Positions 22,399 to 35,080 of a DNA stretch of 64,000 nucleotides are shown here, one piece after another. Both the position numbers and the translations under genes were made by a program. Each line of letters starts with the position of its first letter. Position 1 is the first letter of the stretch. Origin of the DNA: Sulfuritalea hydrogenivorans sk43H (GTDB lineage: Bacteria; Pseudomonadota; Gammaproteobacteria; Burkholderiales; Rhodocyclaceae); contig NZ_AP012547.1 in NCBI RefSeq assembly GCF_000828635.1, positions 186,001 through 250,000 on the forward strand, given 5' to 3'. The notes under the pieces were generated by a model. That model was not told where the DNA came from, made no database searches, and saw only the letters and a program-made list of their open reading frames with translations.

Positions 22399-22494
22399 TG
22401 GCGGAAGAGAGCGGGAGTCGAACCCACCAGGGACCGCATGGCGACCCCTGCCGGTTTTGAAGACCGGCCGCCCCACCGGGGAACGTTCTCTTCC
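22399..22494 (-). tRNA. selC: tRNA-Sec (UCA), selenocysteine
   Basis: A 96-nt gene with encoded GCCA end. The acceptor arm GGAAGAGA pairs with TCTCTTCC over eight bp. The D arm is extended, the anticodon TCA sits in the loop CTTCAAA, the variable arm is long, and the T loop is TTCGACT. These match bacterial tRNA-Sec, which is longer than normal tRNAs. It lies 12 bp after the selB stop. Confidence 0.97.
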
Positions 22495-22506: not shown

Positions 22507-24465
22507 TTAGTTATCAAGCCATGCATGACCGGTACCGCTGCTGCGCACTACATGCTCGTCACGCACGCGGCGAGTGTAGCCGATGCGGTCGAAGAATTCG
22601 AGGATGTGGATCGCCACCTTGCGTCCGCCGCCGCCATCGTGGTAAATGATGTCGCGCAGGTCGGCGGCGCGCGCAGCGCCATTCTCCGCATCAAGTTCGG
22701 CGATGAGCGACACAAGCCGCGCCACGGCATCGGCCGTGAAGTAATGGTCGTGCGCCACGGGATAGAGTTCGCCGGCCCGCGCCACGCGGCGGAACAGCTG
22801 GCGCACCACGTCTTCGGCGGTGCCTGAGGCCTTCGCCACGTCGCGCACGCGCGGTGGGCCGAAGGGCTGGGCGTCGAGCAGCGGTTTGAGTACTGCAAAC
22901 AGGTCGCGATCGCCGGGAGACAGGCTGGCCTGATGTTCCGGCAGATGCAGCCAGGCGCGCGAGGCGGCCAGCCGGCCGGCGGCGATCAACTCGGCGACCA
23001 GCGCGTCGAAGGCGGCACGGGCCAGCGTCGGCAGCGTCAGTCGGCGCAGGCGTTCGCGCTCGACGCCGACCATGTCCGGCGCGCGCTGGTGTTCCGCCGC
23101 GAGCGCCGCGAGCAGCTTGTCGCCCAAGGCCCGCCAGCTTGCGGCGGCAAAGCCGATCTGCTCATCACCGCTGCGCACGACGCGCAGCGCGGCCTGTTGC
23201 CAGAGCGCCGCCGCGGCTGCGTCGCCAAGATTCCAGTTGGCGGCGAAGCGGATCAGATCGATGCCGGCGGCCGATTGCCCGGCCATGAGGCGCAGGCTGG
23301 TCGCCGGGTCGTCGTCGCGCAGCGCATTCAGCAACGCCAGTCGCGCCGGGCTGCGCTTGTGGCGCGAGGGCGGAAAGCCGTCGAGCACGCGGCCGCCGCC
23401 GATGGTTCGTTGTGCCGAGGCATCGCGCAGCACGAAGCGGTCGCCGCGCACGGCGAGGGTTTCGCGGTCGAGCAGGATCTCCGCCAGCGCCGTCCCGCCA
23501 GCGCCGACTTCAGTGCAGTCGAGCAGTGCGACGCGGCCGGTGATGTCGGTGGCGCCCAGATGCACATGCACCGGCGTCCAGTGCTTGAGCGCCGGCTGCG
23601 TTGACGGGACATGCAGTTCGGCTTGAAAACGCCGCAGCGGATGCGCGGCGGCGGGATCAACGACCCACATGCCGCGCTCGATGTCCTTCTTCTCGAAGTC
23701 GCCGGCCAGCGCCAGCGCACAGCGGTCGCCGGCCTGCCCGTGCTGGGCCGGCCGGTCCTGCACATGCAGGCTTTTCACGCGCACCCTGAGCCCGCCATGA
23801 CCGCCATTGCCCTCGGGCGCGATGATCGCCGTGTCGCCAGCGCCGACTCTTCCCGAGAAGGCGGTGCCGGTGACGACGGTGCCGATGCCGGAGAGCGTGA
23901 AGCAGCGGTCGATGGCGAGACGGAAGCGGCCGTGTTCGGGGAAACCGGCACGGCGCTGGCGATGTGCGGCGGCCGTCGCATCGAGATGTGCGCGCAATGC
24001 CGGCACGCCTTCGCCAGTCGTCGCCGACAGCGCGAATACCGGACTGCCCTCCAGTCGCGTGCCGGCCAGCAGCGCTTCGATTTCGCCGCGCGCTTCGGCG
24101 ACGCGCGCCGCATCGACGGTGTCGCACTTGGTCAGCGCCACCGCGCCGCGATCGAGGCCGAGCAGGTCGAGCAGCTCCAGATGCTCGCGCGTCTGCGGCA
24201 TCGGCCCGTCATCGGCGGCGATCACCAGCAGCACGAAGTCGATGCCGGTGGCGCCGGCCAGCATGTTGTGGATCAGCTTCTCGTGGCCCGGCACGTCGAT
24301 GAAGCCGAGCACCGAACCATCGGCCTGCGGCGCGTAGGCGTAGCCGAGGTCGAGCGTGATGCCGCGCGCCTTCTCCTCCGGCAGGCGGTCCGCATCCACG
24401 CCGGTGAGCGCCTTCACCAGCGTGGTTTTGCCGTGGTCGATGTGACCTGCAGTGCCGATGATCAT
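22507..24465 (-). CDS. selB: Selenocysteine-specific elongation factor
   Basis: A 652-residue GTPase that carries Sec-tRNA to UGA codons by binding the SECIS hairpin. The G1 motif [10 protein letters not shown] is at residues 7-16, then [20 protein letters not shown] and TKCD. C-terminal winged-helix domains are recognisable in the last 200 residues ([36 protein letters not shown]). The start overlaps the stop of the transglutaminase-like gene (ATGA). Two copies of the 21-bp repeat (23489-23509 and 23828-23848) encode EVGAGGTA and RVGAGDTA in beta-domain loops. Confidence 0.96.
23489..23509 (+). repeat. 21-bp dispersed repeat, first in selB
   Basis: Two mismatches to the consensus. A partial extra copy (CCGCCAGCGCC) lies immediately before it. 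Confidence 0.85.
23828..23848 (+). repeat. 21-bp dispersed repeat, second in selB
   Basis: Exact match to the consensus. On the coding strand it reads V-G-A-G-D-T-A. Confidence 0.9.
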
Positions 24466-25562
24466 GCGGCGCCGATCTCCTTCGAGCTGAGCTTGTACAC
24501 GAATGTTGCCGGGTCGAGGCTGTCGAGCCGGCCGCTGCTGTTCTCCGCCTGCGGATACATGAAGAAGGGAAGCCTGGCGCCTTTGGAACCCGGAAGAAGG
24601 ATGTCATGGGCAACGTTGTAGGCCAGCCAGTTCATCTCCCAGGCGCCGAACAGTTTTTGCCGGGCGGCAACCACGACGTCGTCCTGCAAGCTGAGGCCGG
24701 GCCTTTCTTCCAGCACCACCTTGCGCACGTCGGCGGGGTCCACCGGCACCCAGCCGAAGTTCGCCAGCCAGACTTCGGCGCGGCAGTGCTGCGCCTTGCT
24801 GATGTCGCCGCTCTTGCCCAGGCTCTTGTAGCCGAACTTCGAATCCGCCACGCGCACGCCATACACGTCGCGCGCCGGCAGGCCCACGGAACGGGCGAGT
24901 CCGACATAGAGCGCGTTGAGGTCGGCGCACTTGCCCGAGAGGTTGCCCGATTCGAGCATGCCGCGAATGTCGCCGGTGCCGCAGCCGCGGGTCTTGGGGT
25001 TGCGCGCCGTGTTGTCCACCACCCATTCGTAGATTGCCCGCGCCTTGTCGAGGTCGGTGGCAGCGCCCTGGGTAATCTCCAGCGCGGTCTTTTTCACGAT
25101 GCCGCCGGTCGGCAGCAGTTCGGTGGCGCGCGTATAGAGTGTGCGACTGGCCCGGTCCAGCGGCGCCACCTTGCCCGGTCGCGCCAGGTCGATGGCGCGG
25201 TCGCGCGTGGCGAAGCGGCTCACCACTTCCAGCACCGGCGCCGGCTCACCGGCATCCCACTGCGCGGCCAGCATCTGCGCGCCATAGACCGGATCGCGCA
25301 GCTGACTTACGGCGGCGGCGTTGCCTTGCCAGAGGTTGCCCATCGGCCTGATCCAGGCGGCATCCTCCACCGCGGGCAAGGGCAGCCACAGGCGCGGCGC
25401 GCCATGGGCGGCCGAGAGTTCGACGCGACTGGTGACTTCGAAGACGCGCCAGCCGTTGGCAGGGGAGGGGTTGAAGCCGCCCTCGGCAGCGAGGGCAAAG
25501 CGCGGTGCGGCGAGCGCGGCGGCGGAAAGTGTTGCGGTCTTGATGAAGGAACGACGGTCCAT
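24462..25562 (-). CDS. Exported transglutaminase-like protein
   Basis: A 366-residue protein with a twin-arginine-like N-terminus (MDRRSFIKTATLSAAALAAP). The transglutaminase-like core has the catalytic cysteine in GNLSGKCADLNALYVGLAR, the histidine in KAQHCRAEVWL and the acidic VPVDPADVRK segment. The start is the ATG at 25562, with GGAG upstream. It is sandwiched between tlpA and selB with a four-base overlap, so it is part of the sel operon. Its role may be proteolytic or cross-linking in the periplasm; there is no direct link to selenium chemistry. Confidence 0.85.
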   Translation of the reverse strand: MDRRSFIKTATLSAAALAAPRFALAAEGGFNPSPANGWRVFEVTSRVELSAAHGAPRLWLPLPAVEDAAWIRPMGNLWQGNAAAVSQLRDPVYGAQMLAAQWDAGEPAPVLEVVSRFATRDRAIDLARPGKVAPLDRASRTLYTRATELLPTGGIVKKTALEITQGAATDLDKARAIYEWVVDNTARNPKTRGCGTGDIRGMLESGNLSGKCADLNALYVGLARSVGLPARDVYGVRVADSKFGYKSLGKSGDISKAQHCRAEVWLANFGWVPVDPADVRKVVLEERPGLSLQDDVVVAARQKLFGAWEMNWLAYNVAHDILLPGSKGARLPFFMYPQAENSSGRLDSLDPATFVYKLSSKEIGAA

Positions 25563-25578
25563 GGTTTTCTCCGGGGAA

Positions 25579-26103
25579 TTAGTTGATGAGTTTTTTGAGT
25601 TGTTGGTCAATGGCGGGCGCATCCCAGTCGATGGCACCCATGCCGCGCGCGACGATGCGATGGCGGCGATCGAGGACGACACTGGTCGGCAGCATGCGCG
25701 CCCCCCAGGCCCGGCTGATGGTCTGCTCGCGGTCATGCAATACCGCCAGGGTCTGCTGGTCGGGCAGCGCTTCCCAGAGGAATTCCTCGACCCGCTTGGC
25801 ATTGTCGGCGACGGCGACGGTCAGCACGGTCAGGCCCTGCGCCTGCCAGCGCTTGGCGAGGCGGGCGAGCGAGGGCATTTCCTCGCGGCAGGGTTCGCAC
25901 CAGGTCGCCCAGAAATTCACCACGACCGGCTGGCCCCTGTGTTGGGCAAGGGCTTGGGTCAGGCGTGGGTCGGCGGTCGTTGGCGCGCTGCGGGCTGTGA
26001 CTGTTTTCAGCGCAGGCGGCGGGGCGGCCCAGACCGGCCCTTGCAGCAGCAAACAGATAAGTGGTGGGGCTGCCGCCAAAGCGAAAAGACGTCTGTACAT
26101 CAT
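25579..26103 (-). CDS. TlpA-like periplasmic thioredoxin
   Basis: A 174-residue exported thioredoxin-fold protein. The signal peptide covers about residues 1-26. The redox motif is NFWATWCEPCREEMPSL and the cis-proline is in RMLPTSVVLD. It ends 16 bp before the transglutaminase-like start. Such proteins reduce specific periplasmic disulfides; the substrate is unknown. Confidence 0.9.
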   Translation of the reverse strand: MMYRRLFALAAAPPLICLLLQGPVWAAPPPALKTVTARSAPTTADPRLTQALAQHRGQPVVVNFWATWCEPCREEMPSLARLAKRWQAQGLTVLTVAVADNAKRVEEFLWEALPDQQTLAVLHDREQTISRAWGARMLPTSVVLDRRHRIVARGMGAIDWDAPAIDQQLKKLIN

Positions 26104-26175: not shown

Positions 26176-27576
26176 TTACGCACCCAGTCCGCTCAAGGCG
26201 GAAAGCTGGGCAGCGAATCCGGATTCTTCGTGCTCGGCCAGGCAGCGCAGGTCGAGCAGCAATGCGCCTTCCTCGATGCGGCCGATCACGGGTTTCGGCA
26301 GGGCACGCAGGCCCTGCTCGATGCGATTCAATATTCCACCGCGCTTGCCCTGTGGCTTGACGGCAAATCCCGCCGAGGGCAGGCGGTCGACCGGCAGCGA
26401 GCCCGAGCCGATTTGCGATTTCAGCGCGACGATCTCCACCGTCACCGGCAGGCCGGCCAGTGCGGATTGCAGCGCGGGCAGCAGGCGCGCGGCCTGCGCC
26501 GCGATGTCTGCCTCGGGCCGCGTCAGCTGGCGCACGGCGGTGACGCGCAGGTGCAGGCGGTCGGGGTCGCGATAGAGCGCGAGAACCGCTTCCAGCGCGG
26601 CGAGCGTCAGCTTGCCGACGCGCAGAGCGCGTTTCAGCGGGTTCTTCTTGATCTTCGCGATCAGATCCTTGCGGCCCACCAGCAGGCCGGCCTGCGGCCC
26701 GCCCAGCAGCTTGTCGCCGGAAAAGGTGACGAGGTCGGCACCGGCGGCGATGGCCTCCGCCGGCGTTGGCTCGTGCGGCAGGCCGTAGGCGGCCAGGTCG
26801 GCCAGGGTGCCGCTGCCGAGGTCGATGACGAAGGGCAGGGTGTGCTGGTGCGCCAGCGCGGCGAGCTCGGCTTCGGGCACGGCATGGGTGAAGCCGTGGA
26901 TCGCGTAGTTGCTGGCATGCACCTTCATCAGCATCGCCGTGCGCGGGTTGATGTTTTCGGCGAAGTCCTTGAGGTGGGTGCGGTTGGTGGTGCCGACTTC
27001 GACCAGTTTCGCTCCGGCGCGGCTCATGATGTCGGGTACGCGAAAGGCGCCGCCGATTTCGATCAGTTCGCCGCGCGAGACGATGACCTGCTTCTTCTGT
27101 GCCAGCGTATTGAGCAGCAGGAACACGGCCGCCGCGTTGTTGTTGACCACCGTGGCGGCTTCGGCGCCGGTCAGTTCGCAGAGCAGTTCGTCGACCACGT
27201 TGTCGCGATCGCCGCGACCGCCGGATTCGATATCGTACTCGAGCGCACAGGGATTGCGCGCGGCGTTGATCAGCGCCTGCACGGCTTCTTCGGGCAGCGG
27301 CGCGCGGCCGAGGTTGGTGTGCAGCACGGTGCCGGTCAGATTGAACACCGGGCGCAACCTGGGGCGCATTTTCGCCGTGACGCCAGCGCCGACTTTTTCA
27401 ACCAGATCGGCTTCGTCGGGCAAGCCCCCGCCTTCCTTGATCGCGGCGCGGGCGGCGGCGAGAACCTCGCGCACCATGCCGGTCACCACGGCGCGGCCGT
27501 GGGCGTCAACCAGCGAGGCGAGCGCCGTAGCGGACAGCAGGCGGTCGACGGAAGGAAGCTGGGAAAGTGGGTTCAT
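26176..27576 (-). CDS. selA: L-seryl-tRNA(Sec) selenium transferase
   Basis: A 466-residue PLP enzyme that converts Ser-tRNA(Sec) to Sec-tRNA(Sec) with selenophosphate. The PLP lysine lies in TFSGDKLLGGPQAGLLVG; TNLGRAPLP and NNNAAAVFLLL are other SelA segments. Length is typical. It is first in the order selA-tlpA-transglutaminase-selB-selC. A copy of the 21-bp repeat (27374-27394, one mismatch) encodes EKVGAGVTA near residue 65. SelD is not in this window. Confidence 0.96.
   Translation of the reverse strand: MNPLSQLPSVDRLLSATALASLVDAHGRAVVTGMVREVLAAARAAIKEGGGLPDEADLVEKVGAGVTAKMRPRLRPVFNLTGTVLHTNLGRAPLPEEAVQALINAARNPCALEYDIESGGRGDRDNVVDELLCELTGAEAATVVNNNAAAVFLLLNTLAQKKQVIVSRGELIEIGGAFRVPDIMSRAGAKLVEVGTTNRTHLKDFAENINPRTAMLMKVHASNYAIHGFTHAVPEAELAALAHQHTLPFVIDLGSGTLADLAAYGLPHEPTPAEAIAAGADLVTFSGDKLLGGPQAGLLVGRKDLIAKIKKNPLKRALRVGKLTLAALEAVLALYRDPDRLHLRVTAVRQLTRPEADIAAQAARLLPALQSALAGLPVTVEIVALKSQIGSGSLPVDRLPSAGFAVKPQGKRGGILNRIEQGLRALPKPVIGRIEEGALLLDLRCLAEHEESGFAAQLSALSGLGA
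27374..27394 (+). repeat. 21-bp dispersed repeat, in selA
   Basis: One mismatch to the consensus. Confidence 0.88.
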
Positions 27577-27764: not shown

Positions 27765-28514
27765 ATGAGTACGCGAAACCCGGCGCCGCAATCGCCGTGG
27801 CAGAAAATGTTGGGCATCGAGCTGAGCCCGGTGAGTCATCGCGAACGGCTGGTATCTGCGCTGGGCGGTTTTGTCGGTTTGCTCGCCGTGTATTTCGTCA
27901 GCCATGCGCTGGGCGGTCCGCCGTCCGCGCCGCTGCTGATTTTTTCAATCGGGGCGTCGACCGTGTTGGTATTCGCGGTGCCGCATGGCGCGCTCTCGCA
28001 GCCGTGGCCTGTTCTTGGCGGGCATCTGGTGGCGGCGCTGATCGGCGTCACCTGCTCGCGCCTGGTGCCGGACGCCATGCTTGCCGCGGCGCTGGCGGTG
28101 GGCCTGTCCATCCTGGCGATGCACTATCTGCGCTGTATCCATCCGCCCGGCGGCGCGACCGCGCTGGTCGCCGTGCTGGGCGGTCCGTCGGTACAGGCGC
28201 TGGGCTTCGGCTTCGTTCTGTCACCGGTGCTGCTCAATGTAGCGGTGCTGCTCGTGGCGGCCATCGCGTTCAACGCCTTTTTTCCCTGGCGCCGCTATCC
28301 GGTCTGGCTGGCACGCCGCACCGCCAGGGCGGAGGCCGTCAGCGCAGGCTACGCGTCGATTTCGCATGAAGACTTCGTCTATGCGCTGACGCAGATGGAT
28401 TCCTTCATCGACGTTTCCGAAGAGGATCTGCTGCGCATCTACAGCCTGGCCACCGGCCGCCACCGCGATGTGTTGGCGGCGGCTGGAGGCATCAGTTCCG
28501 GCGTGCGGCCTTGA
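27765..28514 (+). CDS. HPP-family membrane protein
   Basis: A 249-residue protein with about four or five transmembrane helices and the family signature RCIHPPGGATAL. HPP proteins include plastid nitrite transporters; substrate here is unknown. The C-terminal ~80 residues are soluble (FVYALTQMDSFIDVSEEDL). The ATG is preceded by a weak GGGGG site. Its 3' end overlaps the convergent thioredoxin-fold gene by 23 bp. Confidence 0.85.
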   Translation: MSTRNPAPQSPWQKMLGIELSPVSHRERLVSALGGFVGLLAVYFVSHALGGPPSAPLLIFSIGASTVLVFAVPHGALSQPWPVLGGHLVAALIGVTCSRLVPDAMLAAALAVGLSILAMHYLRCIHPPGGATALVAVLGGPSVQALGFGFVLSPVLLNVAVLLVAAIAFNAFFPWRRYPVWLARRTARAEAVSAGYASISHEDFVYALTQMDSFIDVSEEDLLRIYSLATGRHRDVLAAAGGISSGVRP

Positions 28515-28998
28515 ACTCGGGAAAGGTCGATTTCAGGTAGTGCCTTTCTGAAACGAAGCGGTCGAGCAGCAGCGCGTCTTCCGCGCTGTTGAGGCGGCCG
28601 GTGAAGCGCGCCACTTCCTTGCCCTGGCCGTCGAGGAAGACCAGCACCGGCCGCAACTTGCGCGGGTTGTGGCGCTGGACCATGGCATGGCGCGGATCGT
28701 CCTCGTCCAGCTCCAGATCGCCGAAATCGGCATGGGCGCCGACGTAATTTTTGATGAACTTCGCGCTGACTTCGGGCTTGCGCAGCACACTCACGGTGTA
28801 GCGGCAGGCCCCTCAGTTCAGGTGATCGCCGAAGTACAGCAGGACATGGCGCGCAGGGGTGGACTTGATCTGCGCCACGGCGGCGAAGTCGTCTTTGGCC
28901 AGCGGCACCACGCCGTCGAGATGGTCGGCTTCTGCCGCGGCCGGCAGGCTGAGCGCCGCGGCAAGGACCAGGGCGAAAACGGAAAGCAGGCGTTTCAT
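28492..28998 (-). CDS. Candidate selenoprotein: exported thioredoxin-fold protein with UxxC motif
   Basis: Read with the UGA at 28813-28815 as Sec, this gives one 168-residue protein. A signal peptide (MKRLLSVFALVLAAALSLPA) is followed by a thioredoxin fold: strand HVLLYFG, redox motif U62-G-A-C65 in HLNUGACRYTV, and the cis-Pro strand LRPVLVFLDGQGKEV. The upstream half has a good ribosome-binding site (GAGGAAACCCGA-ATG). The downstream half has none and lacks a start, yet continues the same fold in the same frame. A SECIS-like hairpin follows the UGA. The gene lies between selA and fdhE in a cell that has SelA, SelB and tRNA-Sec. The alternative is a nonsense mutation, but a UGA exactly at the first redox position argues against that. 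Confidence 0.8.
28781..28803 (-). promoter_or_regulatory. Candidate bacterial SECIS hairpin of the thioredoxin-fold selenoprotein
   Basis: In the transcript, +10 to +32 after the UGA can fold. CGC pairs with GCG, a two-base bulge follows, then UACAC pairs with GUGUG and closes a CGUGA loop. The loop starts 18 nt after the UGA and has a G in its first two positions, within the spacing of bacterial SECIS elements. This was folded by eye. Confidence 0.5.
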
Positions 28999-29088
28999 TC
29001 GGGTTTCCTCGGGTTGCATCCGGTGATCGGACTGAAGGGGTGACAGTGTAATTCGGGAATGGGTTCCATGAACCGTGGCTGCGCCGGC

Positions 29089-29109
29089 GCCGTCCCGCCA
29101 GCGCCGACT
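29089..29109 (+). repeat. 21-bp dispersed repeat, intergenic between fdhE and the thioredoxin-fold gene
   Basis: Two mismatches to the consensus; one of two copies outside coding sequence. It lies 9 bp after the fdhE stop codon. Confidence 0.85.
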
Positions 29110-29117
29110 ATCGAAAC

Positions 29118-30041
29118 TCATCCCCCCGGTACCAGCAGCAGGTTCGGCCCGCTGCGGGCATAGCCGGCTTCGTCGACCAGGATGTCCAGCGCCAGCGTGG
29201 CGAGGTCGTCGGCCACGGGATCGACGGGGCCCTTTTCAGAATAGACGATCTTGAGATAGCTCTTGCAGGACTCGCAGGTTTCGGCGCGCACGGCGCCGGC
29301 GGTCTTGTTTTCGTCGGATTCGAGATGGCGGTAGCTGATGCCTTCGTTGGCGTCGCAGGCGCTGCATTTGACGCGTACCAGGTTCCATTCGGTGTTGCAC
29401 AGGGCGCAATGCAGGTAGCGCAGGTTGCTGGCCTCGCCGCTGTTGCGCACCACGCTGGCGACGGGCAGGAAGCCGCAGCAGGGGCAGACGCCGGGGACAT
29501 CGAGCGCGGCGACGTCGCCGATACCAAGGCGCGCGGCAGCGGTGGTCCATAGCACCTGCAAGGCGGCGGCGACGTAGGGCAGCAAGGCGGCGTCGTCGCC
29601 ATAGAGTTCGGTGTGCAGCACGCGTTCGGCCAGCGCCTCGGTGCGCTCTGGCGCTAAGCCGGCCAGACGGGCGAGATCCTGCCGCGCCGGTTCCGGTGCG
29701 ACATCGGCGATGCGCGCGATTATCTGGCGCAGGCTGTCGCGCCAGGCGGGATCGCGTGGCCAGGATTGCGCCGGCAGCGGCGGCATGCGGTGCTCGCGGG
29801 CGCGTGCCAACTGAGCGGTATCGGGCAGCGCCAGCACCGGCAGGGCGTGCAACGCTTCATGCTGGGCGCGGGTGATGGCGGCGAGAAAGCGCAGCCAGTC
29901 GCCGAGCGCGTGGCCTTCGGCCAGTTGTTCGAAGCGCTGCGCGCGCGTGGCGAAAATTGTGTTTGCATCGGGCGCGATGACGTGCGGCGGCTCGCTGCTT
30001 GACTTGATCGGGATGATGGGGGTTTGTGCGGTGGCGCTCAT
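29118..30041 (-). CDS. fdhE: Formate dehydrogenase accessory protein FdhE
   Basis: A 307-residue cytoplasmic protein needed to assemble or activate respiratory formate dehydrogenase. Four CxxC pairs typical of FdhE are visible: CPCCGFLP, CALCNTEW, CSACDANEG and CESCKSYLK. The start is the ATG before SATAQTP; an upstream in-frame ATG is less likely. It follows the fdh structural genes after a terminator hairpin, so it may have its own promoter or depend on readthrough. Confidence 0.94.
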   Translation of the reverse strand: MSATAQTPIIPIKSSSEPPHVIAPDANTIFATRAQRFEQLAEGHALGDWLRFLAAITRAQHEALHALPVLALPDTAQLARAREHRMPPLPAQSWPRDPAWRDSLRQIIARIADVAPEPARQDLARLAGLAPERTEALAERVLHTELYGDDAALLPYVAAALQVLWTTAAARLGIGDVAALDVPGVCPCCGFLPVASVVRNSGEASNLRYLHCALCNTEWNLVRVKCSACDANEGISYRHLESDENKTAGAVRAETCESCKSYLKIVYSEKGPVDPVADDLATLALDILVDEAGYARSGPNLLLVPGG

Positions 30042-30060
30042 AATTTTGTCAGTGTAACAA

Positions 30061-30104
30061 TCCCGCAAGGGGATACCGTCTCCGCTCTTCCAGCGGAGAC
30101 ATAA
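30061..30104 (-). repeat. Short hairpin repeat, copy 2
   Basis: The reverse complement reads TTATGTCTCCGCTGG, then AGCGGAGACGGTATCC and CCTTGCGGGA. It matches the copies at 5401 and 59778 and has a strong TCTCCGCT/AGCGGAGA stem. Confidence 0.8.
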
Positions 30105-31755: not shown

Positions 31756-34700
31756 TTAGATCTTCTCGATGTTGACCAGGAACGCCTTGAATTCCGGCGT
31801 CTGGCAATTGGCGTCGCCGACGAAGGGCGTCAGCGTGTTGGTGATGAAGCCCGGCTTGGTGACCCCCTTGAAACCGAAGTGGATCGGGATGCCCACGGTG
31901 TGCACCTTCTTGCCGTCGACGTCCAGGGTCTTGATGCGCTTGGTGACCACCGCCACGGCCTTGATGAAGCCGCGGTTGCTGCGCACCTTGACCCGGTCAC
32001 CGGCGGCGATGCCCTTTTCCTTCGCCAGTTCCTCGCCGATCTCGACGAACTGCTCGGGTTGCAGCACGGCGTTGATCTTCGAGTGCTTGGTCCAGTAATG
32101 GAAGTGCTCGACCAGGCGGTAGGTGGTGGCCACATACGGGAAGTCCTTGGCCTTGCCGAAGGTTTCCATGTCTCCCTTGTACACCCGCGCCGCCGGATTG
32201 CTGATGGCCTTGGGGTTGTTGGGATGGAAGGGATTCCTGTCCAGCGGCGTTTCGAAGGGCTCGTAGTGCTCGGGGAAGGGACCGTCGGCCATTGCCGGCG
32301 CGAATAGCCGCGCCACGCCTTCCGGCGTCATGATGAAGGGCATCACCCCTTCTTCGGGCGCCGCGTCGGGCCGCATGTCGGGCACGTCGTTGCCGCCCCA
32401 GGCGGTGCCGGTCCAGCGGATCACCGCCCGCTTCGGGTCCCACGGCTTGCCGGCCATGTCGCACGATGCGCGGTTGTAGAGGATGCGCCGGTTGGCCGGC
32501 CAGGCGAAGCCCCAGTTCAGCGTCTGCCCCAGCCCCGAAGGATCGGAGTTGTCGCGCCGCGCAGTGAGGTTGCCCGCCTGCGACCAGGAGCCACCATAGA
32601 TCCAGTTGCCGCACTGGGTGGAACCATCGTCGCGCAACTGGGCGAAGCCGGCGATCTGCTCGCCCGGCTTGACCAGCACCTTGGTCTTGTCCTTCGGATC
32701 GAGGACTTCGCCCAGCGCCTTGCCGGAGATTTCCATGAGGAGCTCTTCGGGCGCGGGCTTGGCCGGCTGGCGGTAGGGCCAGGTCAGGTTGAGGATCGGC
32801 TCGGGCAGCTTGCCGCCGTCCTTGGCATACATCGCTTTCAGCTTGAGGAAGAGCGCGGCCAGGATTTCGATGTCGCCCTTCGATTCGCCCGGGCCGTCGG
32901 CCGCCTTCCAATGCCACTGGATGACGCGGCCGGAGCTGGTGAAGCTGCCGGACTCTTCGGCGAAGAGATTGGCCGGCAGGCGGAACACTTCGGTCTGGAT
33001 CTTCGCCGGGTCCACCTCGTTGAACTCGCCGTGCGGCTTCCAGAACTCGGACGTGTCGGTCGCCAGCGGATCGATGATGACGAGGTATTTCAGCTTGGCC
33101 AGCGCGTCGCCCACCTTCTTCTTGTTCGCCACCGAAGCGAGCGGATTGAAGCCCTGGCAGACGAAGCCGCTCATCTTGCCCTGGTGCATGCGCTCGAAAA
33201 TGGCCAGGGTGTCATACGCCCCGTCCTTCTTCGGCAGCCAGTCGTAGCCGTAGTCGTTCTTGTCGGTCGCGGCAGCCCCGTACCAGGCCTTCTGCAGGCT
33301 GGTGAACCATTTCGGGAAGTTCTGCGGGAAGTTCATCTGGCTCGGACGCAGCGGTTTCGGCGTGCGCTTTTCCAGATAGGTCTTGCGATCGACGTCGGCA
33401 TCGGTCGGCGCCGACAGGTAGCCGGGCAGCACTTCCGAGTAGAGGCACATGTCGGTGATGCCCTGCACGTTGGCGTGCCCGCGCAGCGCGTTGATGCCGC
33501 CGCCCGCCATGCCCATGTTGCCGAGCAGCAGCTGGATCAAGGCCATGGTGCGAATGTTCTGCGAGCCGACCGAATGCTCGGTCCAGCCCAGCGCATAACA
33601 GATCGTCATGGTCTTGTCGGGTGCCGCCGTCTCCGCCATCATTTCGCATATCTTGAGGAAGGCGTCCTGCGGCGTGCCGGTGGTCTTGCTCACCAGTTCC
33701 GGCGTGTAGCGGCTGTAGTGCTTCTTCATCAGCTGGAACACGCAGTTCGGGCTTTCCAGGGTCGGATCGACCATGGCGAAACCGTCCTTGCCCATCTGGT
33801 ATTTCCAGGTGTCCTTGCCGTAGCTGCGCTTTTCGCCGTTGTAGCCGGAGAACAGGCCGTCCTCGAACTTGAAGCCTTCGTCGATCAGGAATGCGGCGTT
33901 GGTGTAGTTCTTGACGTACTCAAGGTGAATCTTGTTGTTGGAGAGCAGGTAGTTGATGACGCCGCCGAGGAAGGCGATGTCGCTACCGGCACGAATCGGC
34001 GCGTAGAAATCGGAAACCGCGGCGGAGCGCGTATAGCGCGGATCGACCACGATCAGCTTGGCCTTGCGATCCTTCTTCGCTTCGATGACCCATTTGAAAC
34101 CGCAGGGATGCGCTTCGGCGGCATTGCCGCCCATGACGATCACCAGGTCTGAATTCTTCAGATCGACCCAATGATTGGTCATTGCACCACGCCCAAATGT
34201 CGGACCCAGACTGGATACCGTGGGGGCGTGTCAAATGCGTGCTTGCGTGTCGAGTGCGACGACTCCGAGGTTGCGCAGGATCTTGCTGGTGAGGTAGCCG
34301 GCCTCGTTGTTGGCGGCGGACGAGGCGAGGAAGCCGAAAGTGTTCCAGCGGTTGACCGTGACGCCTTCGGCGTTCTTCTCGATCAGGTTGGCGTCGCGGT
34401 CCTTCTTCATGTGGGTGGTGATGCGATTGATCGCTTCATCCCACGAAATGCGTTTCCACTCGCTGCTGCCCGCTTCGCGTACTTCCGGGAACTTGAGACG
34501 GTTGGGGCTCTTGACCATGTCCAGCAAGCCCGCGCCCTTGGGGCACAGCGAGCCGCGATTGACGGGATTGTCCGGATCGCCTTCGATGTGGATGATGTCC
34601 GCTTTCGCGTTCTTGGACTTGTCGCCCGTGGTGTAGATCAGGACCCCGCAGCTCACCGAGCAGTAGGGGCACATGTTGCGGGTTTCCGTGGCGCGGGCGA

Positions 34701-34818
34701 GCTTGTAGCTGCGCACCTCCGCCAGGGCCGATGTCGGCGAGAATCCCATCAGTGCGATGGAAGACCCGGAGAGACCGGCGCCGCAGACCTTGAAGAACTG
34801 CCGCCGTGTGACTTGCAT
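31756..34818 (-). CDS. fdnG: Formate dehydrogenase catalytic subunit, selenoprotein (FdnG/FdhA type)
   Basis: A 1020-residue periplasmic bis-MGD enzyme that oxidises formate to CO2, read through an in-frame UGA at 34231-34233. Codon 196 is Sec, in ARIUHAPTVSSLGPTFGRG, the same residue number as Sec196 of E. coli FdnG. A twin-arginine signal (TRRQFFKVCGAGLSG) and the 4Fe-4S ligands C50, C53, C57 and the Cys of GSLCPKG precede it. The ATG at 34818 has AAAGGAGGAG upstream. Downstream segments (MGGNAAEAHPCGFKW, YALGWTEHSVGSQN) match the family. The UGA is not a frameshift: both halves are in one frame. Confidence 0.97.
34188..34230 (-). promoter_or_regulatory. SECIS element of fdnG
   Basis: Begins right after the UGA. 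The outer stem CACGCCC pairs with GGGCGUG. The inner stem GG-(bulged U)-AUCC pairs with GGGU-CC around an AGUCU loop. A bulged U and a GUCU loop are the SelB contacts known for E. coli fdhF/fdnG. Confidence 0.88.
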
Positions 34819-34883
34819 TTGTTTGCCTCCTCCTTTATTGAGTTCCGGTTCGCCGAAATCCATGCAAACCAGCATGGCTATGA

Positions 34884-34900
34884 CGCAAGTTCTGCGCCAA
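34884..34900 (-). promoter_or_regulatory. Sigma-54 promoter of the fdn operon
   Basis: On the minus strand the sequence is TTGGCGCAGAACTTGCG. It has GG and GC separated by exactly ten bases, close to the consensus TGGCACG-N4-TTGC. It lies about 66 bp upstream of the fdnG start. Confidence 0.78.
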
Positions 34901-34930
34901 TTCACTGCTACCAACAGGGACAAACACTTA

Positions 34931-34997
34931 CCGCATTGCAGCAGTGCGGGTTGGACAAAATGTCCAAAGCGAATCGGGGCAGGTGAGACATTTTGTC
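34931..34997. promoter_or_regulatory. Tandem inverted repeats: probable enhancer sites for the NtrC-type regulator
   Basis: A perfect inverted repeat TTGGACA-AAA-TGTCCAA (34951-34967) and a second GACA-TTT-TGTC (34987-34997) have centres 33 bp apart, three helical turns. Next to them is CCGCATTGC-A-GCAGTGCGG (34931-34949, one mismatch). They lie 50-115 bp upstream of the sigma-54 promoter and just before the divergent regulator gene. Assignment to that regulator is inference from position. Confidence 0.65.
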
Positions 34998-35080
34998 GCC
35001 AGCTTTCCCACTCATTGCCAAGCCCCTCCGAATTGACGATCATTGCGAGCATAAGAGCAGTTCAGCAAAGGGGGAGACAC

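Follow-up and report, generated by a model that had tools for sequence, protein, structure and literature searches.

Does the reading frame between fdhE and selA in Sulfuritalea hydrogenivorans sk43H, which is interrupted by a UGA at the active site of a thioredoxin-like protein, encode one selenoprotein, or are its two parts the remains of a decaying gene or separate products? An initial annotation of this DNA, made from the letters alone, favoured a selenoprotein, and we followed it up in the window, that is, the whole stretch of 64,000 nucleotides that was analysed (contig NZ_AP012547.1, positions 186,001 to 250,000; the source genome, 3.80 Mb long, is a single contig), as well as in related genomes. 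The gene, which we name trxU here, is almost certainly an intact selenoprotein gene with selenocysteine at UGA-62. This reading follows from a fixed UGA, one coding frame under selection, Cys at the same position in relatives, a frozen hairpin past the UGA and the presence of the selenium machinery.

The trxU gene and its surroundings

As annotated initially, the UGA-split thioredoxin-fold gene runs on the minus strand in one frame from 28998 to 28492 (Table 1), although ordinary frame reading, as in the ORF list, cuts it into two fragments. When the UGA is read as a residue, the product is 168 amino acids long, with a single internal UGA and a terminal TGA at 28494-28492. The UGA does fall on the first redox position of a CxxC motif, as codon 62 of U-G-A-C in the context FGDHLN-U-GAC-RYTVSVL, and P117 occupies the expected place of the thioredoxin cis-Pro. 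The upstream half, to which a ribosome-binding site and a signal peptide had been ascribed, has GAGGAAA before its ATG and an N-terminus that resembles a signal peptide by eye; GGAG, GAGG or AGGA precedes the start in 33 of 35 copies. A promoter scan of 28400-29200 gave no sigma-70-like site, and the scan of the same region for terminators gave a single plus-strand hit resembling a terminator, where 0.7 were expected.

Genes on the strand of trxU follow the order fdhG, fdhH, fdhI, fdhE, trxU, selA, a TlpA-like gene, a transglutaminase-like gene, selB, tRNA-Sec and sodC. The machinery said to be near the gene was found there, with selA, selB and tRNA-Sec at the locus and the Sec formate dehydrogenase on the other side. 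The products of selB, selA and fdhE, together with the beta, gamma and C-terminal alpha parts of formate dehydrogenase, score above the NCBIfam cut-offs, and selA, selB, selC and selD are all found in the source genome.

Table 1. Features of the trxU locus, in window positions.
Feature	Position	Strand	Basis or remark
tRNA-Sec (selC)	22399..22494	(-)	ARAGORN; RF01852 71.4 bits
selB	22507..24465	(-)	TIGR00475 459.5 bits
selA	26176..27576	(-)	TIGR00474 592.3 bits
Predicted selenoprotein gene (named trxU here)	28492..28998	(-)	168 codons + stop, UGA at codon 62
SECIS-like upper hairpin	28785..28802	(-)	nt 14-31 from U of UGA; geometry, frozen codons
In-frame UGA, codon 62, first position of UxxC	28813..28815	(-)	Sequence
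Probable signal peptide, residues 1-24	28927..28998	(-)	Cleavage site judged by eye
Ribosome-binding site GAGGAAA	29004..29010	(-)	Precedes ATG
fdhE, directly upstream of trxU	29118..30068	(-)	TIGR01562 284 bits
Formate dehydrogenase alpha (fdhG), UGA at 34233-34231	31756..35052	(-)	TIGR01553 1184.6 bits C-terminal; PF04879 N-terminal
SECIS_3 of formate dehydrogenase	34178..34236	(-)	RF01989 77.5 bits

Relatives with UGA and relatives with cysteine

A search of the source's taxonomic family matched 37 of 199 genomes, and the best eight matches (62-99% identity, the window's copy included) each have one internal TGA. Within the genus, trxU occurs in 26 of the 31 genomes as 27 copies, each with one TGA, while six weaker matches in the same genus genomes (E 4e-7 or worse) are stop-free. 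A profile search of 395 genomes of the family, which overlap with the 199 above, gave 25 matches at E 1e-20 or better, and each has one TGA. Among the matches listed at higher ranks, an internal TGA was present only in the window's own copy in the class (369 genomes) and the phylum (398 genomes), and only in the window's own copy and in genome G479 in the order (399 genomes); the weak matches at order and class level are uninterrupted frames with CxxC.

We aligned 34 Cys homologues, chosen from those weak matches that became loci, with 18 Sec rows (52 rows in total); Cys-type loci outside the alignment and the tree include L013, L015, L020, L024-L029 and L031. The initial annotation had pointed to residue 62 of homologues as the place to look, and Cys stands at the UGA position in all 34 aligned distant relatives. 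With U counted as C, all 52 rows agree at residues 62, 65 and P117. A profile of 13 Sec rows matches one of 27 Cys rows with a probability of 99.6 and an E value of 1.8e-24, and residue 62 lies opposite the first Cys. PF13098 (Thioredoxin_2) is matched by both of the Cys homologues tested. Pfam gave no match at E 1 or better for three Sec members, the window protein among them, and the PF13098 gathering score was not reached. The window protein's only NCBIfam match is SelL_rel_redox (E 0.041; 13.5 bits, where the cut-off is 120), and none of the known NCBIfam selenoprotein and DsbH models reaches E 0.01 for it. In the PDB, the 52-row profile matches a thioredoxin, a DsbC-like protein, DsbH (2ju5, 2.3e-11) and DsbD domains; the Sec-only profile found nothing significant there. 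On the strength of these sequence profiles, the trxU product is assigned to the thioredoxin-fold proteins. Locus L013, with one TGA and 30% identity, was considered as a further Sec member and rejected, its motif being CPFC and its TGA the terminal stop.

The G479 copy comes from another family of the same order, in which 27 of 74 genomes matched; its protein is 31% identical to the window's and carries the motif UAGC. Proteins with one TGA and UxxC that are 47-52% identical to that of G479 occur in G1198, G1201 and G1182, so that the second clade comprises four genomes. These genomes carry tRNA-Sec, as do four tested genomes of that family that gave no match, and tRNA-Sec alone is therefore no predictor of the gene. 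Locus L133 (G1204:C44:16706-16882) is a partial second-clade copy with two TGA that is apparently broken, through decay or an assembly error, and was left out of the quick tree (72 rows). SH-aLRT values in this tree are 97 for the main Sec clade and 99 for the second. A long-branched Cys-type sequence, L049 (G595:C22:21580-21996; CPPC, 35% identity), groups with the Sec clades; owing to its place among them and to the program's long-branch warning, one and two origins of Sec are indistinguishable.

The SECIS-like hairpin and selection across the UGA

An excerpt of PMC8659212 describes the upper hairpin of the bacterial SECIS as nt 15-31 from the UGA, with U17 bulged and with U17, G23 and U24 invariable. 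The fdhG hairpin consists of GG, bulged U17, AUCC, loop AGUCU (G23, U24), GGGU and CC, and that of trxU of GC, bulged U16 (28800), ACAC, loop CGUGA (G22 and U23, at 28794-28793), GUGU and GC. The CGUGA-loop hairpin reported in the initial annotation is thus real in the sequence, and its loop begins 17 nt after the UGA, where about 18 had been given. The element resembles the E. coli-type SECIS and the SECIS_3 of fdhG in its bulged U, in the GU six and seven nt further on, and in the pairs that flank the bulge, four on its upper and two on its lower side, but it lies one nt nearer the UGA, has a 5-nt loop and is built from other paired bases.

We scanned for this geometry, defined as a U at 16 or 17, four pairs, a loop of 3-5 nt, GU six and seven nt past the U, and two outer pairs. 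Only 2 of the window's 1545 TGA triplets (both strands) are followed by it, those of trxU and fdhG, and the background of 28 in 127,880 positions corresponds to about 0.34 expected for 1545 TGA; the exact hairpin positions were set after both sites had been seen, and allowing the U anywhere at 13-33 raises the count to 6 of 1545. Across 35 fetched loci with 7341 TGA triplets, the geometry occurs at 34 gene copies and at one further TGA. The G479 copy is without this bulged-U/GU signature; in the second clade, another hairpin, CUCUCC-GGC-GGAGAG, which lies about 30 nt past the UGA, may be a substitute element.

In a comparison with SECIS models, which had also been proposed, the published SelB-recognition geometry is present, though no SECIS family in Rfam matches the trxU hairpin and the folding energy is unremarkable (z-scores of -1.34 for trxU and -0.79 for fdhG). 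In 7 of 13 sequences, the window's own not among them, the exact hairpin is part of the minimum-energy fold; the isolated 18-nt element does fold into the hairpin, with one extra pair in two copies. A loose bacterial SECIS model, taken from PMC13188914 and as coded here, also fits 55 of 94 ordinary frames that end in TGA and was rejected as evidence.

For closer comparison we used 34 full-length copies from 33 genomes of the source's family, two of them from G216, a genome with 10% contamination. These two (L110 and L111) are divergent, each has its own selA and selB, and they perhaps represent two organisms. Codons 66-71 (CGC TAC ACC GTG AGT GTG) are synonymously invariant in the 34 copies, and the three copies with another residue at codon 70 still keep GT. 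The seven codons from codon 66 form the most codon-constrained stretch (equalled by 4 of 100,000 random column sets), and synonymous divergence, pS, rises from 0.188 over the 11 codons that follow the UGA to 0.477 beyond codon +15. Upper-hairpin pairs are invariant in 34/34 copies, with no variation and hence no covariation; in the lower stem, the pairing register differs between species.

An in-frame GTG at codon 69 could suggest two genes, or a regulated short product, with translation stopping at the UGA or restarting downstream and with functional fragments. Low selenium leads to a truncated product in any selenoprotein, which here would have 61 residues. However, this GTG lies inside the frozen hairpin and has no start site like that of trxU before it, and the two halves form one fold in which C62, C65 and P117 are invariant through the 52 aligned rows. 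We consider separate fragments very improbable.

Even less room is left for a pseudogene, in which an ordinary CxxC thioredoxin-like gene would be decaying after a nonsense change at its first Cys codon. Such decay would fit the lack of a Pfam or significant NCBIfam match for trxU, and the second-clade copy of G1204, with two TGA, is taken as a truly broken example. Yet TGA is found at aligned codon 62 in 34/34 close copies and other internal stops in 0/34, median dN/dS is 0.30 before the UGA (mature part) and 0.31 after it (561 pairs), synonymous sites past the UGA are frozen, and the terminal stops vary (27 TGA, 6 TAG and 1 TAA). A fixed UGA with no other stop and equal dN/dS on both sides argues for one protein under selection and not a relic, and we rejected the pseudogene on this 34-copy comparison. 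The initial annotation had named an ordinary residue at codon 62, or extra stops in relatives, as signs of plain decay; we looked for them in homologues and related strains, found them in 0/34 close copies, and regard the selenoprotein reading as supported. The motif among the 34 copies is UGAC in 29, UGTC in three, USAC in one and UPFC in one.

The distribution of the machinery was compared with that of the gene. tRNA-Sec (>60 bits) was detected in 30 of the 34 carrier genomes tested, G479 included. Four genomes without it (G211, G213, G221 and G222; 70-85% complete) all have selA beside trxU, and three of them selB, so that no carrier genome among the 33 lacks both tRNA-Sec and selA. Five genus members are without trxU, and tRNA-Sec is present in one of these (G220) and absent in four; it is present in two of five hand-picked family members with only Cys homologues. 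selD is non-discriminating, since all 11 tested genomes have it, four of them without trxU. In two genomes that carry a UGA thioredoxin, selD itself has one internal TGA and probably encodes a Sec-containing SelD (G479:C129:8959-9888 and G732:C200:35621-36550). Reading of the UGA as Trp or another near-cognate residue, for which nothing specific speaks beyond the fact that an inserted residue is not visible from sequence alone, is scarcely credible given the Cys in all 34 aligned distant relatives, the SelB-type hairpin common to trxU and fdhG, and the tRNA-Sec or selA of every carrier genome.

Possible function and kinship with known selenoproteins

With selenocysteine as the residue at position 62, SelB and selenocysteyl-tRNA would bind the hairpin 11-28 nt after the UGA and ribosomes would pass UGA-62, yielding a putative exported thioredoxin-fold protein whose active site is U-G-A-C. 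After export, selenocysteine 62 could attack a periplasmic partner at a disulfide or an oxidised thiol; Cys65 could resolve the bond, leaving a selenenyl-sulfide, and the trxU product could then be re-reduced by DsbD, which is encoded in the source genome (DsbD_TM in a 602-residue frame). We give roughly even chances to the product working in this way, as a DsbH-, DsbD-gamma- or Thioredoxin_2-type reductase in the periplasm. The DsbH model (NF043050) matches 33 of the 52 aligned members at E 0.01 or better, whereas the window protein differs from DsbH and DsbD-gamma reductases in having no NCBIfam match at E 0.01, Sec in place of Cys and a shorter loop before the cis-Pro.

The neighbouring formate dehydrogenase is a candidate partner on the basis of linkage, which is absent from 9 of the 34 copies. 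On the same strand, fdhE lies upstream and selA downstream in 25 of the 34 copies, only selA in four and neither in five (counted within the flanks fetched, which in some cases stop where the contig does); in nine of those 25 copies, fdhE and trxU are about 0.75-2.4 kb apart. It seems doubtful that trxU is a dedicated helper of another selenoprotein, maintaining the exported Sec-formate dehydrogenase in reduced form or restoring its active site as a periplasmic Sec reductase, with fdh-trxU-selA-selB-selC forming a self-contained selenium module. For the role in peroxide defence with SodC that had been floated initially we found nothing in favour, the sole link being sodC beyond selC.

UxxC thioredoxin-fold selenoproteins as a kind are already known. 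Several are found in Table 1 of a 2026 review (PMC13188914), among them a PF13098 thiol:disulfide interchange selenoprotein with UxxC and the representative WP_011366075.1. This family and trxU are alike in placing UxxC on a Thioredoxin_2-type fold, as the two tested Cys homologues of trxU match PF13098, but the Sec proteins of trxU match no Pfam model; the two may be distantly related. The trxU family was not recognised among the Table 1 entries, which were compared by name and motif. Literature naming Sulfuritalea, Rhodocyclaceae or Rhodocyclales with selenoproteins yielded nothing relevant, as judged partly from titles. We infer that trxU probably represents a new family within this known kind. 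It would add a selenoprotein family that standard frame reading splits in two and that Pfam and NCBIfam models miss. The comparative set of 34 copies, a second UGA clade and Cys homologues could help to reveal what an exported thioredoxin-fold protein gains from selenocysteine, and the locus itself offers two SECIS elements, that of trxU being predicted, with the same recognition geometry and different paired bases.

Other genes at the locus recur with trxU. An HPP-family membrane protein gene, at 27765-28514 (+), lies between trxU and selA and overlaps the 3' end of trxU tail-to-tail by 23 bp; an opposite-strand HPP gene is found just downstream of trxU in 23 of the 34 loci. Between selA and selB, at 24462-26103 (-), are a TlpA/ResA-like exported thioredoxin and a transglutaminase-like protein; of the 34 loci, 9 have this pair at the same position and one more has a partial TlpA alone.
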